Source: Pirellula sp. (GTDB lineage Bacteria; Planctomycetota; Planctomycetia; Pirellulales; PNKZ01). From it: 64,000 nt of DNA. The notes beneath the pieces are model-generated. The model did not search any database. It was not told the DNA's origin and worked only from the letters and a program-made list of their open reading frames with translations. Positions 25,271 through 49,110 of the stretch are shown piece by piece. A program made the translations under genes and the position numbers. The stretch is from NCBI GenBank assembly GCA_013822735.1, contig PNKZ01000002.1, forward strand, positions 248,001-312,000, written 5' to 3'. Numbering within the stretch: position 1 is the first letter of the stretch; each line of letters opens with the position of its first letter.

Positions 25271-25327
25271 TATTTAGCCCCTGGTCGGCGACCAGGGGGC
25301 CCGCCATCGCCGACGGCGGGCTAAATA
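25271..25327 (+). repeat. 57-bp palindromic element with TATTTAGCCC ends (copy 1)
   Basis: It is bounded by TATTTAGCCC and GGGCTAAATA and contains two inner hairpins, CTGGTCGGCGACCAG and CCGCC-ATCGCCGA-CGGCGG. A closely matching copy lies in opposite orientation at 47094-47151. Both copies sit just outside coding regions. It resembles REP/BIME-type bacterial palindromes. Confidence 0.85.
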
Positions 25328-41772: not shown

Positions 41773-42201
41773 CTATCGTGCCGACGCCATGCGAACGCCG
41801 CGCGTGTACTTGTGACACTTCACGCAGCTCATCGTCATTTCCATGTAGGCCAACGTGGCGGCGTCGATATTTCGTCGTTCTGCCGCTTTGTTCAGATCGC
41901 GACATATCTCGTTAAAGATGTTGCTGTGAGTGCGGTAGTCGGGCGTCTGGAAGACCATCCACTTTTCGTCTTCGAGAAGTACCGACATTGCTGAAGCGTG
42001 CTTGGCGATCATTTCGAAATCTTCCAAGACGATGCCTTCGAGCACTTGCTGGGAGTGCCCTAGCTTTAATCGCATGAAGGCATGAATGTCGGCCGGACGT
42101 TCGCCGCCTACGCGTACTTTATCTTCGGCCTGCAATTCGAGAGCTGCCAATGCAAGGACGGCGGCTGCCGTAACGCTTCGCAGCGTCAGTTTTCGATTCA
42201 T
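41773..42201 (-). CDS. exported c-type cytochrome (c556/c'-like helical)
   Basis: 142 residues. A signal peptide (MNRKLTLRSVTAAAVLALAALELQA, located at residues 1-25) is followed by an all-helical domain. A single heme motif, Cys126-Val-Lys-Cys129-His130, is near the C-terminus, the position found in cytochromes c' and c556. Met43 or Met45 in the first helix could be the sixth ligand as in c556. It would act in the periplasm. It is the last gene of the minus-strand series led by an ECF sigma factor; the 155-bp gap before it is the widest in that series, so its membership is less certain than that of the others. Confidence 0.8.
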   Translation of the reverse strand: MNRKLTLRSVTAAAVLALAALELQAEDKVRVGGERPADIHAFMRLKLGHSQQVLEGIVLEDFEMIAKHASAMSVLLEDEKWMVFQTPDYRTHSNIFNEICRDLNKAAERRNIDAATLAYMEMTMSCVKCHKYTRGVRMASAR

Positions 42202-42356
42202 GGAAGAATCCTTTCGATGAGTGCAAAGAGATGAGCGGCGACAGCATCATCTCCGGTCGGGGACGTCCCGCCAAGAGGATTGTTCGGTCTCCCGTAAATC
42301 ACCGTCGCGTGTCTGAGCCGCACACCTTCGCGGGTTCGCCATCGGCGGATGTAACG

Positions 42357-43658
42357 TTAGGTGAGGAGGCGACGGATCGGTTCGCCGCCGTCGGAGATGG
42401 CGATCGGCCGGCCGACGGGGCTCATCGCTTCCTTCGCCGGGTCCATGCCGAGCAGCGTGGCAAGCGTCGCGAAGTAGTTCGGCACGGTGACGGCGTCCGA
42501 TACGACCTTCGCGCCGGTTTCGTCCGTCGCGCCGTACGCTTGGCCGCCGCGCACGCCGCCGCCGGCAAGTACCGTGCTCCACGCATTGGGGTAATGGTCG
42601 CGCCCGTCGACGCGACTGATCGTCGGCGTGCGGCCGAACTCTCCCATCCACACCACCAGCGTTTCGTCGAGCAGTTTGCGTTCCTCCAACTCCCGCAGCA
42701 GCGTCGCCATGGCAGGATCGAGATCGCGCATGAGAAGCGACGTCTTGGTGAAGTTATCGATGTGCGTGTCCCAGCCGTCGAGCGTTACTTCGACGAACTG
42801 TACGCCCGTCTCGATCAAGCGGCGCGCCATCAAGCAGCCCCGGCCGAAGTCGCTATCGCCGTAGGCCTTTTGCACGGCGGCGGGCTCCGTCGCGATGTCG
42901 AACGCCTTCACAAGCGGCGACCGCATCATTTGCGTCGCCTTGCGATACACGGCGTCGTGGTTGGCCGGCGCCGCCGAACGTGAAACCGTGCGGAAGTCGT
43001 CCTGCAACATTTGCAGTGCCTCTAGACGAGCTGCAAATCGGGTCTGGTCGACGTCTTTAGGAGCCGCGAGGTTGCGCACGCCCCGGCTCGGGTTCTGGAT
43101 CGCAAACGGGTTGTGCTGCACGCCGAGGAATCCGGAACCAACCGACGGCCCGCGGATGCTCACGAAGTTCGGCAGATCGAAGTCCGGATTGCCGAGTTCG
43201 CTGCTGACCCACGAGCCAAGGCTCGGGTGTTTGAGCGTGCCGCTCGGCGAGTAGCCGGTGTGCATGAGGTACTGGCCGCGATCGTGGTTTCCCTCTTTGC
43301 TCGTCATCGAGCGCACGATCGCCAAATGCTTCGCTTGCTCGGCGACCTGCGGCAGGTGCTCGCAGATTTGCACGTCGCGCGCCGAGGTCCTGATCGCCTT
43401 GAACTCGCCGCCGTTCGCGGTGCCGGGCTTCGGATCAAACGTGTCGATATGGCTCGGGCCGCCGTTCATCCAAAGCAGAATGCACGCCTTCGGCTTCGTG
43501 CTCTTGCGGCCTTCCGTGGCGCTGGCCAATGCCGCGCGAGCCTGCCATTGCGGAATGGCCAAACTCAGCAGCCCGCCAAGTCCGCCGGCGATGAACGAGC
43601 GACGCGCGATGCCCGCTGCGGGGCCGGCACAGGTCAACTGACGATGTTCGTACGACAT
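42357..43658 (-). CDS. DUF1501 family exported protein (sulfatase-like fold)
   Basis: 433 residues. A twin-arginine signal is visible as ARRSFIAGGLGGLL at ~18-31. The DUF1501 hallmarks follow: LLWMNGGPSHIDTFDPKPG near residue 60, then GNHDRGQYLMHTGYSPSG, TLDGWDTHIDN and GEFGRTPTISRVDGRDHYP. These place Asp/His residues as in alkaline-phosphatase-superfamily metal sites. Activity is unproven. In planctomycetes DUF1501 genes almost always accompany a DUF1549/DUF1553 gene, as here with a 23-bp gap, so the two products probably work together in the periplasm. Confidence 0.93.
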   Translation of the reverse strand: MSYEHRQLTCAGPAAGIARRSFIAGGLGGLLSLAIPQWQARAALASATEGRKSTKPKACILLWMNGGPSHIDTFDPKPGTANGGEFKAIRTSARDVQICEHLPQVAEQAKHLAIVRSMTSKEGNHDRGQYLMHTGYSPSGTLKHPSLGSWVSSELGNPDFDLPNFVSIRGPSVGSGFLGVQHNPFAIQNPSRGVRNLAAPKDVDQTRFAARLEALQMLQDDFRTVSRSAAPANHDAVYRKATQMMRSPLVKAFDIATEPAAVQKAYGDSDFGRGCLMARRLIETGVQFVEVTLDGWDTHIDNFTKTSLLMRDLDPAMATLLRELEERKLLDETLVVWMGEFGRTPTISRVDGRDHYPNAWSTVLAGGGVRGGQAYGATDETGAKVVSDAVTVPNYFATLATLLGMDPAKEAMSPVGRPIAISDGGEPIRRLLT

Positions 43659-43681
43659 AGAGTCTTTCCCGATCGGAAGCC

Positions 43682-45571
43682 TTAGTGATTGCTTAAAAAC
43701 TCGCTCGAATTCAGCAGCGCCCAGTACATATCTTCATACGCTTGCTCGCGCGGAGTCGATCCGCCGCCGACGGATGCCAAAAATTGAAACGGCGCGTCGG
43801 CCGCATAGGCCCGAAATGCTTTGGCGTAGAGCGCGGCATCCGCGTTGTTCTGCATCTTGCCGCGCAGCGCCATGTAGTCGGCCGCGGTGCGGGCATGCTT
43901 CAACAACTCCGTGAAGTCGGCGTCGTCGGCGGCATTCGCAATTCCCGGGCTGACCTTCTTGGCGTCGGCTCCAACAACCACGTCAAGTTTCTCCCCCGGT
44001 GTTCGCACGACTTTCCGGCCTCGCTCGATGAATGAAATCCAACGAGCGAGCTCCGCCGAGGTCGGCTGGCGTGAAAGGGTGCGCAGGTACAACTGCTCGA
44101 TGACCGCCGCATCGTCCGAATTCTTCGTCAGCGTCGCTAAGCCGAAGCCGGGCGTCAGACGCGAGGTACCGCAGACGAGGGCGCCGTTGAGCATCATGAG
44201 CGATCGCGGAATCGTTTCTTCCGGCTCGCTCACTTCAGCCATGTCGTCGGTGCCCATCTGTACGACGAGTTCTTGAATGAACGAGCCGCGAATGAGTTCA
44301 AATTGGTTCGTCGCGATCTTGTCGAGTCCCGCCCGGGCTTCGGTCGCTTGCACCACGGCGTCGAATAGCTCCTCGACGTCGAGCGCTTTAAGCGGATAGG
44401 CGGCCCAGTAGTCGTGCTTCCCGGCCCCGAGTTCGAGTTCGACAGACGCGCGACCGTACGCTTCGGTGTTGCAGATCGTGCGGAGCAAATGCCGCAGGTC
44501 GTACTTGTGGTCGCGGAAATCGCCGGCCAGGGCTTCGAGTACGGCGGGCATCGTCGCCGGATTGCCGGGCCGGAAATCATCCACGGGGTCGACGAACCCG
44601 CGGCCGAGGAGCTTCCCCCACATTCGATTGACGATCGCCTGGGCGAACCAGGGATTGTCTGCGGCAGTGACCCAATCGGCCACGAGCTTGCGTCGGCTTC
44701 CCCAGGTGCGCAGTTCCGGGCCGTCGAGCAGTTTCGGCGTCACGTCGACATAGTCTTTGTACGAGCCGAACACCTGCTCATATTTGTCGACCGGCGGCAC
44801 AATCAATCGATCTTTCAATTCCATGCGAAACACGCCGACCATGGTCGTGAGCATCGCAGGCTTTTCCACGTAAGTCGGCCAGGTCTTCGTGAAGCAGGCG
44901 GCAAATTGCTTGAAGTCGTCCTGCTTCCACTTCTCGGTCTTGTGATCGTGGCACTGCGCACATTGAATCTGCACGCCGAGGAAGAGCTTCGACGTCGCTG
45001 AGGCCATATCGGGCAGAGCCCGGGAGTAACGGAGAAACCAATTCGAGGCAGGGCTGAACCGCTCGTCGAAATCTTTCGGGTCCGGCCCGCCGCCGCGTAA
45101 AGGACGTTTGTTCGTGTTGTACCCTTCGGCGGTGATCAGCTCGCGAACGATCGCGTCCCATGGTGCATTCGCGGCAAATTGCTCGCGCAGCCATTGCTTG
45201 AAGGCCTGCCGGTCGAGAAACCCCTCGCGGGTCAATCGGCCCATTAGAAGCGTGTCCCAATAGGTTGCCCAGTGTTCGGCATACTCGGGGGACGCGAGCA
45301 ATCGATCGATGGCCGCAGCACGTTTGTCGGAAGATGTCTCGGCGGCGAACTTCACGACGTCGTCCGGCTTCGGTAATCGGCCGGTGAGGTCGAGCGTCAC
45401 GCGTCGTAGGAAGCGCTCGTCGTCGACTTGCGGCGCCGGCGTAATGCCTTGCTCGCGCCAAGCGGCGCGCAGCTGGCGATCGACGGTCGTCACGATCGCC
45501 GGCGTTTCCGCGCGACATGTATCGGCGACGGTTAGCAGCAGCGCCATTCCGAACAGGGTGCGGCAATTCAT
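43682..45571 (-). CDS. DUF1549/DUF1553 (PSCyt2/PSD1) exported protein with one CxxCH
   Basis: 629 residues. Signal peptide at 1-21. The DUF1549 domain begins FLRRVTLDLTGRLP near residue 54 and carries Cys204-Ala-Gln-Cys207-His208, a c-type heme site. The DUF1553 domain includes WFAQAIVNRMWGKLLGRGFVDPVDDFRP (used only to locate the block near 310-340) and DLRHLLRTICNTEAYGR. The N-terminal cytochrome domain (PSC1) present in longer relatives is absent, making this the short form. Its biochemical role is unknown; electron transfer with the DUF1501 partner and the c556-like cytochrome is a plausible inference. It lies 59 bp after the anchored helical-protein gene. Confidence 0.92.
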   Translation of the reverse strand: MNCRTLFGMALLLTVADTCRAETPAIVTTVDRQLRAAWREQGITPAPQVDDERFLRRVTLDLTGRLPKPDDVVKFAAETSSDKRAAAIDRLLASPEYAEHWATYWDTLLMGRLTREGFLDRQAFKQWLREQFAANAPWDAIVRELITAEGYNTNKRPLRGGGPDPKDFDERFSPASNWFLRYSRALPDMASATSKLFLGVQIQCAQCHDHKTEKWKQDDFKQFAACFTKTWPTYVEKPAMLTTMVGVFRMELKDRLIVPPVDKYEQVFGSYKDYVDVTPKLLDGPELRTWGSRRKLVADWVTAADNPWFAQAIVNRMWGKLLGRGFVDPVDDFRPGNPATMPAVLEALAGDFRDHKYDLRHLLRTICNTEAYGRASVELELGAGKHDYWAAYPLKALDVEELFDAVVQATEARAGLDKIATNQFELIRGSFIQELVVQMGTDDMAEVSEPEETIPRSLMMLNGALVCGTSRLTPGFGLATLTKNSDDAAVIEQLYLRTLSRQPTSAELARWISFIERGRKVVRTPGEKLDVVVGADAKKVSPGIANAADDADFTELLKHARTAADYMALRGKMQNNADAALYAKAFRAYAADAPFQFLASVGGGSTPREQAYEDMYWALLNSSEFLSNH

Positions 45572-45630
45572 GGCCCGACTCCAGGCAAAGACTTCGTTAA
45601 TTTGGCGAGACGGTATTGATCGCGAACCAA

Positions 45631-46059
45631 CTACTTGCGATTCGAGCGGCCGGCTTCCATGCTCGGCATGCCTGCGCCGCCCCAGGGAGACGGCTTCTCC
45701 ATCGCTTCGATGATTGAGCGCTTGAGTTGTTCCTGTTGCGGCTCGGGGAGTTTGATCGCCACGGCCAGCAGCAGCTCTTTGACGATGCTCTTCCGTTTGG
45801 CTTCACTACCGTCGCGAAGTTCCTTCATTTGCATCATGGCGTCGTCGATGATCGGGCGAAGCTCTTCTTCTTGGGCCACGGTGAGCGACGCCGCCTTACG
45901 CAGCCACTCAAGCGTCCGCGGGGTCCAAGTCGACTCATCGAGCTTGTTGCGGTACTCACGCTGAATGGCACGAACCGTGCCGACCGCCCCGCAGGCCGCT
46001 CCGGCGACGAACACCAAGGCGACGAGCAGAATCGATTTCCAATGGCGAAAAAGGCTCAC
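45631..46059 (-). CDS. membrane-anchored periplasmic helical protein (CnrX/Spy-like architecture)
   Basis: 142 residues from the GTG at 46059, which overlaps the preceding stop as GTGA. One N-terminal anchor (ILLVALVFVAGAACGAVGTV) is followed by a mainly helical hydrophilic domain: WTPRTLEWLRKAASLT, EEELRPIIDDAMMQMKEL, IVKELLLAVAIKLPEPQQEQLKRSI. The architecture matches the CnrX/NccX metal sensors and Spy-type proteins that accompany sigma/anti-sigma pairs. However, the domain has no His, so CnrX-type metal binding is unlikely. It probably senses or buffers something in the periplasm as the third member of the sigma module. I do not assign a ligand. Confidence 0.65.
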   Translation of the reverse strand: MSLFRHWKSILLVALVFVAGAACGAVGTVRAIQREYRNKLDESTWTPRTLEWLRKAASLTVAQEEELRPIIDDAMMQMKELRDGSEAKRKSIVKELLLAVAIKLPEPQQEQLKRSIIEAMEKPSPWGGAGMPSMEAGRSNRK

Positions 46060-46361
46060 GGCAGCAACTCCCAGGTGACAAGTCCGTCGAACGGCGAGGG
46101 TCGCGGCGACAGCAGCGACGACAAGTCTTGCCAACTCGACACGGCCAAGAGCAATGAGGCGGCCAACGCGAGGGCGGCGCTCCAACCAAGGATGCGTTCA
46201 TTCGTTACGTCGCTCCGTCGCATCGGACTACGGTTTCGCACCGCGAGCAACACGCGATCCGCTAGGCCTTCCGGCGGCGCGAGTGGTACCTCCGCCGACG
46301 GATTATCGCGGGCCGCGGTCGTCAGTCGCCGCCAGGCGTCGTCGATGTTCGGATTGGTCAT
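46056..46361 (-). CDS. small single-pass membrane protein, putative anti-sigma factor
   Basis: 101 residues from the ATG at 46361, which overlaps the sigma factor's stop as ATGA. Residues ~1-50 are hydrophilic (IDDAWRRLTTAA, then LADRVLLAVRNRS). One transmembrane helix is at ~59-80 (ILGWSAALALAASLLLAVSSW), with a short outer tail ending VTWELLP. No zinc anti-sigma motif (HxxxCxxC) is present. Size, topology and position right after an ECF sigma gene fit a minimal anti-sigma factor such as CnrY, but sequence similarity is not evident. Its stop overlaps the next start as GTGA. Confidence 0.62.
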   Translation of the reverse strand: MTNPNIDDAWRRLTTAARDNPSAEVPLAPPEGLADRVLLAVRNRSPMRRSDVTNERILGWSAALALAASLLLAVSSWQDLSSLLSPRPSPFDGLVTWELLP

Positions 46362-46945
46362 AACTTTCGTTCTCCCAGCAGTCGTTCGAGCGTTGCACGG
46401 ACCCTCGCTCGGGCCCTCGCGAGTTTCCATTTCGTCCACGACAGGCTCCAGCCCAAGGTGGTCGCCGTGTCATTCAATGTTCGTTCTTCTAAGTCGTGCA
46501 GCCGGATCAACACGGCGTCTTCCGCTTCGAGTCCGGCTAAAACGTGGTCGACCAGTTCCTTCGACGCAGCCGCTTCCGGCCCGGCGGAGTTCGACGAATC
46601 AGCCAAGGACGCGTCGAGCGCCGCACTTTCCGTTTCGCTCAGATCGGCCCGTCGCAGCTCGCGCCGACGCTTGGTTTTTCGCAAGGCGTCGAGGCAGGCG
46701 TTCACGGCGATCCGAGCGATCCAATGTTCCAGCGGCGCGTCGCTGCGGTACTGGTCGAGCCGCTCGAACACGCGGAGGTACGTTTCCTGTTCGCAGGCCG
46801 CGCGGTCTTGGGCCGGCGAAAGGTGGGAGCGCACGATCCGCGCGACCAGCGGATAGGTCGCGTCGACCAATTCCCGGAAGGCTCCGTCGTTGCCCGATTG
46901 CACTTGCGCCACGCACCGGGCGGCGTCGAAGTTGGCATCGGTCAT
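46358..46945 (-). CDS. ECF-type RNA polymerase sigma factor
   Basis: 195 residues. Region 2 is at ~15-95 (GAFRELVDATYPLVARIVRSHLS, then EQETYLRVFERLDQYR and WIARIAVNACLDALRK). Region 4 is at ~130-190 (LEERTLNDTATTLGWSLSWTKWKLARARARVR locates the helix-turn-helix). A Ser/Ala/Glu-rich linker near 108-128 separates the two. It lacks regions 1 and 3, as ECF factors do. It overlaps the small membrane-protein gene as ATGA. The rest of the series (anchored helical protein, DUF1549/1553, DUF1501, cytochrome) runs on the same strand with gaps of 59, 23 and 155 bp, so autoregulated co-transcription is likely. Confidence 0.9.
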   Translation of the reverse strand: MTDANFDAARCVAQVQSGNDGAFRELVDATYPLVARIVRSHLSPAQDRAACEQETYLRVFERLDQYRSDAPLEHWIARIAVNACLDALRKTKRRRELRRADLSETESAALDASLADSSNSAGPEAAASKELVDHVLAGLEAEDAVLIRLHDLEERTLNDTATTLGWSLSWTKWKLARARARVRATLERLLGERKL

Positions 46946-47012: not shown

Positions 47013-47093
47013 CGGCCACGATAAAAAAGAAAATATCGCGGAATGTAATAAAACGCGAGCAAGAGCGGCGTTATTGAACGCTGCGCGTCGCGC

Positions 47094-47151
47094 TATTTAG
47101 CCCGCCGTCGGCGACGGCGGGCGCCCCCGGTCGCCGACCGGGGGCTAAATA
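47094..47151 (-). repeat. 58-bp palindromic element with TATTTAGCCC ends (copy 2, inverted)
   Basis: TATTTAGCCCGCCGTCGGCG...GGGGGCTAAATA. Reverse-complemented, it matches the 25271-25327 element nearly base for base, with the two inner hairpins in the same order. It lies between the dxs stop (47170) and the ECF sigma leader. Confidence 0.85.
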
Positions 47152-47169
47152 AATGCACTGTACGAAGCA

Positions 47170-49110
47170 CTACCCGCGGCGGCGGATTGCCGGCTTGTCC
47201 GTAGGAACTTCGTCGTCTTGGTGCACTGCCGCACCGGCGAGTTCGCGGCACTTGGCGGCGATGCCGGCGGCGTCGAGCCCCAAATCGGCCAGCAATTCCC
47301 CGCGCTCGCCATGTTCGACATAGCGGTCGGGAATGCCGAGACGATGGACGTTGGCAGTCGGCAAGCCGGCTTCGTTGGCTGCTTCGAGCACGGCCGAGCC
47401 GAAGCCGGTCATGAGTTGCCCTTCTTCCACGGTGAGCACGAACGGCGCCGTCGCGACCGCCTTGAGCATCGTTTCGTTGTCGAGCGGTTTGACGAACCGG
47501 GCATTGACCACGCCGATATCGAGCCCTTCGTCGCGTAGCATCGCGGCGGCGCGCAGGCAGTTGGTGAGCAGCGTCCCGCAGGCGAGGATCATGCCGTCGC
47601 CTCCCCATTCGATCACTTCGGCTTTGCCGAGTTCGATCGGTGCCGGAGAACGATCGACCGTTTCGGCCGGCGCCTTCGGGTAACGGATCGAAGTCGGCTC
47701 GTCGTGCTTCAGCGCGAAGTCGAGCATGGCGGGCAAGTCGGCTTCGTCGCCGGGGGCCATCACCACCATGTGCGGGAACATCCGCATGTAGCCGATGTCG
47801 AAGACGCCGTGATGCGTCGGGCCGTCAGGGCCGGTGAGGCCGCCGCGGTCGAGCAAGAACGTCACCGGCAAATTCTGTAGCGACACTTCTTGGAAGATTT
47901 GGTCGAAGCTTCGTTGCAAGAACGTGCTGTAGATGTCGACGATCGGTCGCAGGCCTGCCTTCGCTTGGCCGGCGGCGAACGCCACGGCGTGCGATTCGCA
48001 AATGCCGACGTCGAAGAAGCGGTCCGGATAGTCGTCGCGCACCTTCTCCAGGTTGGTTCCTTGGCACATCGCCGCCGTAAGCACGGTCACCTTCGGGTTG
48101 GCCGCGAGTTGGGCATGGATCGCGGCGCTGGCGACGTTCGTATACGCGCGGCTGCCGCTTTTCTTGCTTGAGATAATGCGAGGGCCGTCGTACGCGAACG
48201 GCGCGGGCGTATGGAAGGTCACTGGATCGTCTTCCGCCGGGCCGAAGCCGTGCCCCTTCTGCGTGACGATGTGCAACAGCACCGGCCCTTCGGCCTCTTG
48301 GCACATTTCCAAGTATTGCTTGAGCAGGCCGAGGTTATGGCCGTCGATCGGGCCGACATAGCGGATGCCCAACTCTTCGAAGAGCATCCCGCCGTGGAAC
48401 CCGGCCTTCACGGCGTCGCGGGTGTTCTTCAACATCCGCTCCATGCCGTCTCCGATGAGCGGCACCTTCGTGAGCGCCTTCGCGGCGCCTTGCTTCAGGC
48501 CGACGTAGAGGGGCGTCAAACGTAAGCGGTCGAAGTAATCGGCCACGCCGCCGACGCGCGGGCAGATCGACATTTTATTGTCGTTCAACACGACGATCAT
48601 CTTCTTCTTCAGACCTGCGGCGTTGTTCAAGGCCTCGAATACGATGCCCGACGGAAACGCCCCGTCGCCGATCACAGCCACGGCTTGCCGATCTTCCTGG
48701 CCGGGGATCAGGTCGTCGCCGCTCTTCAGACCGAGCACCGTCGAAACGCTGCTGCCGGCGTGGCCCGTCACGAAAAGGTCGTAATCGCTTTCCGCGGGGT
48801 TGGGGTAGCCCATCAGGCCCCCCTTGGTGCGAATCGAAGCGAAATCGCGGAAGCGGCCCGTGATGAGCTTGTGCGGATAGATTTGGTGACCGGTGTCCCA
48901 AATGAGCCGGTCGCGGCGGAAGTCAAACGTCGTGTGCAACGCCAAGCAAAGCTCGACGACGCCGAGATTCGACGCGAAGTGCGCCGTGCGGTTGGTAACG
49001 ACTTTACAGAGCGCCTCGCGCATCTCGGCCGCCACTTGCTCCAATTGCATGAGCGAAAGGGGACGGAGATCTTCAGGGGAGTCGATCGTAGGGAGTAGCG
49101 GCGCGGCCAT
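47170..49110 (-). CDS. dxs: 1-deoxy-D-xylulose-5-phosphate synthase
   Basis: 646 residues from the ATG at 49110, preceded by GGAAAGGAACC; an in-frame GTG at 49131 lies inside ispA. Thiamine-diphosphate enzyme motifs are visible: WDTGHQIYPHKLITGR near 75-90, GDGAFPSGIVFEALNNAAG near 152-170 with the Mg-binding Asp, NDNKMSI, RYVGPIDGHN and HIVTQKGHGF, and in the transketolase-like middle DVGICESHAVAFAAGQA with the catalytic Glu. It makes DXP from pyruvate and glyceraldehyde-3-phosphate, the first step of the MEP pathway. It follows ispA by 1 bp. Confidence 0.95.
   Translation of the reverse strand: MAAPLLPTIDSPEDLRPLSLMQLEQVAAEMREALCKVVTNRTAHFASNLGVVELCLALHTTFDFRRDRLIWDTGHQIYPHKLITGRFRDFASIRTKGGLMGYPNPAESDYDLFVTGHAGSSVSTVLGLKSGDDLIPGQEDRQAVAVIGDGAFPSGIVFEALNNAAGLKKKMIVVLNDNKMSICPRVGGVADYFDRLRLTPLYVGLKQGAAKALTKVPLIGDGMERMLKNTRDAVKAGFHGGMLFEELGIRYVGPIDGHNLGLLKQYLEMCQEAEGPVLLHIVTQKGHGFGPAEDDPVTFHTPAPFAYDGPRIISSKKSGSRAYTNVASAAIHAQLAANPKVTVLTAAMCQGTNLEKVRDDYPDRFFDVGICESHAVAFAAGQAKAGLRPIVDIYSTFLQRSFDQIFQEVSLQNLPVTFLLDRGGLTGPDGPTHHGVFDIGYMRMFPHMVVMAPGDEADLPAMLDFALKHDEPTSIRYPKAPAETVDRSPAPIELGKAEVIEWGGDGMILACGTLLTNCLRAAAMLRDEGLDIGVVNARFVKPLDNETMLKAVATAPFVLTVEEGQLMTGFGSAVLEAANEAGLPTANVHRLGIPDRYVEHGERGELLADLGLDAAGIAAKCRELAGAAVHQDDEVPTDKPAIRRRG

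Follow-up and report, generated by a model that had tools for sequence, protein, structure and literature searches.

The locus lies in a 64,000-nucleotide stretch of a Pirellula sp. genome (hereafter the window), and the minus strand carries all six of its open reading frames. An ECF sigma factor of 195 amino acids (P0001; 46358..46945) is followed by a small protein of 101 amino acids (P0002; 46056..46361), an anchored periplasmic helical protein of 142 amino acids with an N-terminal transmembrane segment (P0003; 45631..46059), an exported DUF1549 (PSCyt2)/DUF1553 (PSD1) protein of 629 amino acids (P0004; 43682..45571), a DUF1501 protein of 433 amino acids with a Tat-like signal (P0005; 42357..43658) and a c556/c'-like monohaem cytochrome of 142 amino acids (P0006; 41773..42201). 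The first three genes are tightly coupled, as the preliminary description had stated: the ATG of the transmembrane-protein gene overlaps the sigma stop as ATGA, and the GTG start of the helical-protein gene overlaps the stop of the transmembrane-protein gene as GTGA. Gaps of 59 bp, 23 bp and 155 bp then precede the DUF1549/1553, DUF1501 and cytochrome genes, respectively. All six genes had been read as one operon. They are indeed present on one strand, but the conserved genes are five, from the sigma factor to DUF1501 (window 46945-42357, minus), and the cytochrome is excluded.

Between dxs and the sigma gene lies a REP-like double hairpin (47090..47170, minus), with a fold of -50.7 kcal/mol (z -5.6) and a core motif found in 22 copies in the genome versus 0 for the reversed control. 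It likely marks a boundary of the unit. A simple scan for sigma-70 promoters returned no match and is uninformative. Upstream of the sigma gene, the window and one congener (G001) have in common GTCACTCT..TTG.TAGGAACG, part of which is found in a second congener (G003).

P0001 is recognized by Pfam Sigma70_r2 (E 4.3e-12) and by TIGR02937 sigma70-ECF (1.9e-21). Its top PDB match with phmmer is CnrH (4cxf, E 7.8e-11), above sigma-E (1.2e-9); judged from sequence, this relation is one of homology and not of orthology. P0002 has a single transmembrane segment at about residues 57-75 and a short cytoplasmic N-terminus. Its matches to Pfam and NCBIfam families are all sub-threshold, including a weak one to the NCBIfam anti-sigma entry NF052375 (E 6.7e-5), and it has no match among PDB sequences. 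Orthologues are found in G001, G003 and G005. The length, topology and gene position are compatible with a small transmembrane anti-sigma factor of the CnrY type, and by this analogy P0002 is probably a minimal class II-like anti-sigma factor.

The third protein is probably a periplasmic sensor of the LTXXQ (Spy/CpxP/CnrX) kind. Its double LTXXQ motif, L59xxxQ63 and L104xxxQ108, is invariant in 10 aligned proteins, and the top PDB match of its profile is Spy (3oeo, E 0.0011). In Pfam, PF13801 Metal_resist matches P0003 with an E-value of 1.4e-5 and 25.6 bits against a cut-off of 29.2; the orthologues score 24.9-29.0 bits, with E-values of 1e-5 to 1e-6 in all four, the window protein included. 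By these scores P0003 is a distant relative of the family and not a filed member. The structural model has four periplasmic helices at low confidence (mean pLDDT 58.8). It matches STV (Z 8.6), Spy (6.1), NccX (5.5) and CpxP (5.4), scores which unrelated helical bundles also reach, and Foldseek returned nothing convincing for it, the best hit being Spy at E 1.0. Together with the sigma factor's match to CnrH, the double motif bears out the CnrH-CnrY-CnrX-like architecture noticed beforehand. The lack of histidines for CnrX-type metal binding was also correctly seen: the sole histidine of P0003 is residue 6, ahead of the transmembrane segment, with none in residues 7-142, and the orthologues have 0-1 periplasmic histidines, which are not conserved. 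Since these side chains are missing, CnrX-like metal binding by P0003 is unlikely.

The cargo consists of two exported proteins of different families. P0004 matches Pfam PSCyt2/DUF1549 (4.7e-50) and PSD1/DUF1553 (3e-33), both above cut-off, and contains one CxxCH at residues 204-208. P0005 matches Pfam DUF1501 (5.1e-119), and neither protein has a match among PDB sequences. The AlphaFold model of P0005 (pLDDT 80.7) resembles sulfatases in Foldseek (E 5e-7) and XacNPP (VIA Z 19.1, rmsd 3.3 over 248 residues); on the evidence of this model, the protein has an alkaline-phosphatase/sulfatase-superfamily core fold. The invariant residues D297, H299, D354 and H355 are candidate metal ligands. A haem motif was found in 0 of 39 DUF1501 sequences. 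With this fold and no haem motif in DUF1501, the two proteins are not a redox pair as such, so that only the DUF1549 half of that earlier label stands.

Gene order in relatives had been proposed as a check, and the order is kept. All five genes, from sigma to DUF1501, are found in the same order in the window and in two of three congeners (G001, G003). In another genus of the same family (G005), the first four are in order and the contig stops just past DUF1549. The operon is absent from G002, of the same genus, and from G004 and G006. Between the window and the two congener operons, protein identity is 59-83%, and 43-44% for the transmembrane protein. The flanks differ: dxs lies upstream in the window and G003 and on a different contig in G001, and asparagine synthase, which lies downstream in the window and in G001, is missing from that place in G003. 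The block has therefore been kept against rearrangement. In G001 the helical-protein gene overlaps the DUF1549 gene by ATGA, which ties the trio to its cargo. Chance association of the genes was considered and is ruled out by the conserved order. In Myxococcales, Acidobacteria and other planctomycetes, no such trio was found near a DUF1549-DUF1501 pair (L012-L049); a single locus, L029, has an ECF gene of a different type upstream.

Cassettes of sigma factor, small transmembrane protein and anchored LTXXQ protein occur across the phylum, mostly without DUF1549. A sigma gene lies just upstream in 59 of the 66 helical-protein loci that were examined, and the cassette is therefore a real unit. 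In the sigma tree, the window clade forms a separate, divergent branch among planctomycete trio sigmas, and the four sigmas linked to DUF1549 group in a single clade (support 99/92). As for the cargo, the window genome encodes 51 DUF1549 domains and has three further ECF genes upstream of DUF1549 genes. Four DUF1549 genes of this genome have a same-strand ECF gene within 4 kb upstream, where uniform placement would give 0.53 (Poisson 0.002, a value which gene clustering makes rough). In the window genome, L070 has the order ECF-FecR-DUF1549-DUF1501.

We consider it fairly probable that the locus encodes an autoregulated Cnr-like envelope-sensing ECF circuit, His-poor and divergent, which was recruited to the control of a DUF1549-DUF1501 operon. 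The observations on which this model is built are the order of the genes and their overlaps, their conservation, the family matches, the motif and the absent histidines. The first five genes would constitute a self-contained operon, a trans-envelope ECF circuit together with its cargo. The short cytoplasmic part of P0002 would inhibit the sigma factor in the way that CnrY inhibits CnrH with its two helices. P0003 would sense a periplasmic condition and pass the signal across the membrane to P0002; the released sigma factor would then transcribe its own operon. The output, an exported monohaem c-type DUF1549/1553 protein and an exported, predicted hydrolase-like DUF1501 protein, would thus be made on demand. 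For P0003, envelope stress or a ligand, as with Spy/CpxP, is a likelier cue than a metal.

The trio could instead be a general envelope-stress regulator with its main targets elsewhere, DUF1549 and DUF1501 being passengers on its transcript. In other lineages the trio indeed stands alone or is joined by a secreted LTXXQ protein (20/66 loci), and in one genus redoxin-cytochromes accompany it; the window genome itself has a second trio (L107) without DUF1549. However, the link to DUF1549 is kept in two genera despite the changes in the flanks, the genes overlap in G001 and the DUF1549-linked sigmas are a clade of their own, which makes passengers an unlikely explanation.

A metal-responsive system of the Cnr/Ncc type, using other ligands (Met, Asp, Glu) and with DUF1549-DUF1501 as a metal-related output, is quite improbable. 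It would fit the sigma factor's nearest PDB relative, CnrH, and the label Heavy-metal resistance that Pfam gives to the family of the helical protein. Metal binding may even be ancestral, because the helical proteins of other trios carry more histidines (median 3 versus 0-1 in the window clade). Yet P0003 has no periplasmic histidine, its methionines are not kept in the orthologue alignment and the operon contains no metal-efflux gene.

The cytochrome P0006 has a CVKCH at residues 126-130 and a sub-cut-off Pfam match to Cytochrom_C_2 (E 0.004). It had been counted as part of the module, a claim which does not survive comparison: no cytochrome follows DUF1501 in either congener operon readable beyond that gene (L009/L011; G001, G003), and in G001 DUF1501 abuts asparagine synthase directly. 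The family is dispersed, with the nearest relatives of P0006 on other contigs and, in several genomes, beside genes reading as universal stress proteins or hemerythrins. P0006 is a lineage-specific neighbour, and its membership in the operon is rejected on the evidence of the relatives that lack it. That all six genes form one redox-pathway circuit is very unlikely indeed, for all the common strand, the CxxCH of both DUF1549 and the cytochrome and the 155-bp gap in which no terminator-like site was reported, given these relatives and the 39 of 39 DUF1501 sequences without a haem motif.

Returning to the proposed envelope-sensing circuit, DUF1549/DUF1553 and DUF1501 genes have multiplied in planctomycetes, and a private sigma circuit makes the function of the pair testable: the condition which induces the circuit would point to its job. 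A bolder and rather doubtful extension is that the LTXXQ sensor of the window clade no longer senses metal but follows its own cargo, by the state or the product of the latter, the private ECF circuit providing dedicated feedback on the DUF1549 haem and DUF1501 hydrolase-like proteins. Such feedback would be a first handle on the role of these abundant pairs. More broadly, planctomycetes make wide use of Cnr-like cassettes for signalling, with cargo that varies.

The closest characterized system is CnrYXH of Cupriavidus metallidurans, composed of the ECF factor CnrH, the class II anti-sigma factor CnrY, which holds CnrH with two helices, and the periplasmic metal sensor CnrX. The window trio shares with it three small genes, a sigma factor nearest to CnrH in the PDB, a small transmembrane protein with a short cytoplasmic N-terminus and an anchored LTXXQ-type periplasmic helical protein. 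It differs in that the sigma gene comes first, the anti-sigma role of P0002 is putative, the helical protein lacks the periplasmic histidines of CnrX and the cargo is DUF1549-DUF1501, with no RND-type metal efflux genes linked. Other planctomycete cassettes (L107 in the window genome, L108, L111, L057) have the identical three-gene architecture, the LTXXQ spacing and the conserved glycines in the transmembrane segment. Unlike them, the window clade has a divergent sigma branch, few periplasmic histidines and no secreted LTXXQ partner, and it alone carries DUF1549.

ECF control of a DUF1549/1553 gene has been proposed for Rhodopirellula baltica RB10049/RB10051 (Studholme 2004, cited in PMC2754498), and L070 likewise has an ECF gene near a DUF1549/1553 gene which it putatively controls. 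The ECF factors there are of other types, without a Cnr-like trio; L070 has FecR in between. In the planctomycete-specific cytochrome (PSCyt) clusters of PMC5615132, a PSCyt2 gene also adjoins a partner gene of a different family, whereas no sigma circuit is mentioned; according to that paper, the PSCyt genes have no known function. The preliminary description held that a dedicated circuit of this kind was not known to have been described. This probably holds for the particular Cnr-like trio ahead of DUF1549-DUF1501, of which an earlier account in this exact order may exist, but the ECF-DUF1549 link was already proposed for R. baltica (PMC2754498) and the cassette is phylum-wide. The system combines known parts in a new way and is not a new kind of system.

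The gene run occupies the minus strand of the window (G000:C2:248001-312000, genome size 6.88 Mb). It opens with an ECF sigma factor (P0001, 46945-46358), a single-TM protein of 101 aa (P0002, 46361-46056) and a 142-aa protein combining an N-terminal TM segment with a helical C-terminal part (P0003, 46059-45631). Further on lie a 629-aa DUF1549/1553 protein (P0004, 45571-43682), a 433-aa DUF1501 protein (P0005, 43658-42357) and a 142-aa cytochrome (P0006, 42201-41773). ORF coordinates and junctions bear out the preliminary description of six minus-strand genes, the first three being coupled: the sigma and TM genes overlap by ATGA, the TM and helical genes by GTGA. The following gaps measure 59 bp (helical-DUF1549), 23 bp (DUF1549-DUF1501) and 155 bp (DUF1501-cytochrome). 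Between dxs and the sigma gene, a REP-like GC-rich double hairpin (47090-47170, core 47123-47145) is flanked by TTTAGCCC/GGGCTAAA; its core pattern has 22 copies in the genome and none in a reversed control, and a second copy within the window lies at 25277-25299.

The arrangement was sought in 57 genomes with the helical protein as query. As anticipated, the gene order is conserved in relatives: G001 and G003, of the same genus, show the identical order sigma-TM-helical-DUF1549-DUF1501 (these loci recur as L009 and L011 in the named collection), and G005, from another genus of the family, carries sigma-TM-helical-DUF1549. The G005 contig stops 19 bases past DUF1549, so any adjoining DUF1501 would lie beyond its end; elsewhere in that genome the best DUF1501 match has only 45% identity. 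Compared with the window, G001/G003 show identities of 72/66% (sigma), 44/43% (TM), 66/59% (helical), 73/71% (DUF1549) and 83/78% (DUF1501), and G005 of 42% (sigma), 40% (helical) and 66% (DUF1549). An ATGA overlap joins the helical gene to DUF1549 in G001, and coupling thus spans the join between circuit and cargo. The flanks move: dxs is upstream in the window and G003 and on another contig in G001, while asparagine synthase is downstream in the window and G001 and not in G003. Since the block is retained meanwhile, these five genes are best read, from gene order, as a functional unit. G002, a 99% complete genome of the same genus, lacks the operon, as do G004 and G006, which makes it accessory.

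The cytochrome, proposed as sixth member of the operon, does not belong to this unit. It is missing behind DUF1501 in G001, where asparagine synthase abuts DUF1501, and in G003, and its family is dispersed (4 matches within the window's genome; matches in 36/77 genomes). Its nearest relatives in several genomes (L180, L183, L184, L186) adjoin small universal stress protein-like and hemerythrin-like genes, as read by eye rather than by Pfam.

In P0002, a cytoplasmic stretch of ~55 residues precedes the TM segment; the protein weakly matches an NCBIfam anti-sigma model, and a PDB sequence search gave no match. P0003 falls below the Pfam Metal_resist cut-off (orthologues 24.9-29.0 bits, cut-off 29.2). 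Its double LTXXQ motif is invariant in ten aligned relatives (L59, Q63, L104, Q108) and its profile finds Spy as best PDB match (E 0.0011). The predicted model, of modest confidence, has four periplasmic helices; among its structural matches, STV, Spy, NccX and CpxP are intermixed with unrelated bundles. The periplasmic part contains no His, as first noticed.

The DUF1549-DUF1501 cargo had been described as a redox pair, which holds for one partner. P0004 has one CxxCH, a motif present in 41/41 DUF1549 sequences of the set, whereas a motif scan found it in 0/39 DUF1501 sequences. The P0005 model (pLDDT 80.7) matches sulfatases by Foldseek (E 5e-7) and, by VIA, nucleotide pyrophosphatases/phosphodiesterases (Z 19.1, rmsd 3.3, 248 residues). 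Invariant DUF1501 residues D297, H299, D354 and H355 may be metal ligands. Given this hydrolase-type fold and the confinement of CxxCH to DUF1549, the pair would comprise a haem protein and a hydrolase-like protein rather than two redox proteins. Pairs homologous to it occur without the trio in Myxococcales and others, hence the pair can function trio-free. The window's genome holds 57 DUF1553 and 51 DUF1549 matches; this gene content and the genome's relatives indicate a planctomycete.

In searches with a P0003 profile, 33 of 296 genomes of the order and 52 of 392 genomes of the phylum gave a match, and 66 cassette loci were read. In 59 of them an ECF sigma gene closely precedes the helical gene; a profile detected the TM gene in 30, and most of the others have enough space for it. 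The window clade, with four loci, is the only one in which DUF1549 follows the trio. A second trio in the same genome (C23, L107 9795-11121) has no DUF1549 behind it. In a sigma tree the four DUF1549-linked sigmas group as a single clade (99/92) that falls outside the main trio group, although its branch is long and the root arbitrary; all trios likely share a common origin. Periplasmic His number 0-1 in the window clade, whereas the median is 3 among the 56 others (Mann-Whitney p 0.002, a rough value as the rows are related).

Other cassettes differ in composition. In three loci of genus g22 (L057 4077-9754; L109 2132-7752; L115 581-4016) the trio stands directly upstream of one or two redoxin-c-type cytochrome genes, a different cargo on the same circuit. 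A secreted, Spy-like LTXXQ gene directly precedes sigma in 20/66 loci (L108, L110-L113, L117, L120, L135-L140 and others), and the two of these proteins that were checked both score above the Metal_resist cut-off. Cassettes with both anchored and free LTXXQ proteins are likely a planctomycete envelope-stress or metal system.

A dedicated signalling circuit for the pair had been considered undescribed, which is correct in part. According to PMC2754498, Studholme et al. proposed that ECF factor RB10049 regulates the DUF1549/1553 protein RB10051; the same paper describes RB10049 as raised under all three stresses tested. On the window's contig, L070 3097-9050 (G000:C2, about 183096-189049) runs ECF-FecR-PSCyt1/DUF1549/DUF1553-DUF1501, so that an ECF gene is wired to such a pair in a second way, unrelated to the first. 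L071 1-13999 (G000:C25:17000-31000) has two divergent ECF genes, each leading a separate set of DUF1549 and DUF1501-like genes; an MscS-like channel is encoded in one set and a pectate-lyase-like protein in the other. The idea that ECF factors control DUF1549 genes is therefore not new. The idea of such control by a Cnr-like trio is new as far as the literature searched shows.

The block most likely encodes an autoregulated trans-envelope circuit with DUF1549-DUF1501 as part of its output. P0002 would hold P0001, P0003 would act as sensor, and P0001, once freed, would make more operon product, DUF1549-DUF1501 included. The novelty is a fresh combination of parts. As for the suggested CnrH-CnrY-CnrX architecture, the three-part make-up stands: a small TM protein, an anchored LTXXQ-type helical protein, and a sigma factor whose best solved relative in a PDB sequence search is CnrH complexed with CnrY (4cxf, E 7.8e-11), where two CnrY helices wrap CnrH (PMC7406223, PMC4598750). 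The window circuit would work alike, yet it lacks two features that define Cnr, the His ligands and the efflux cargo, and is not classed as Cnr.
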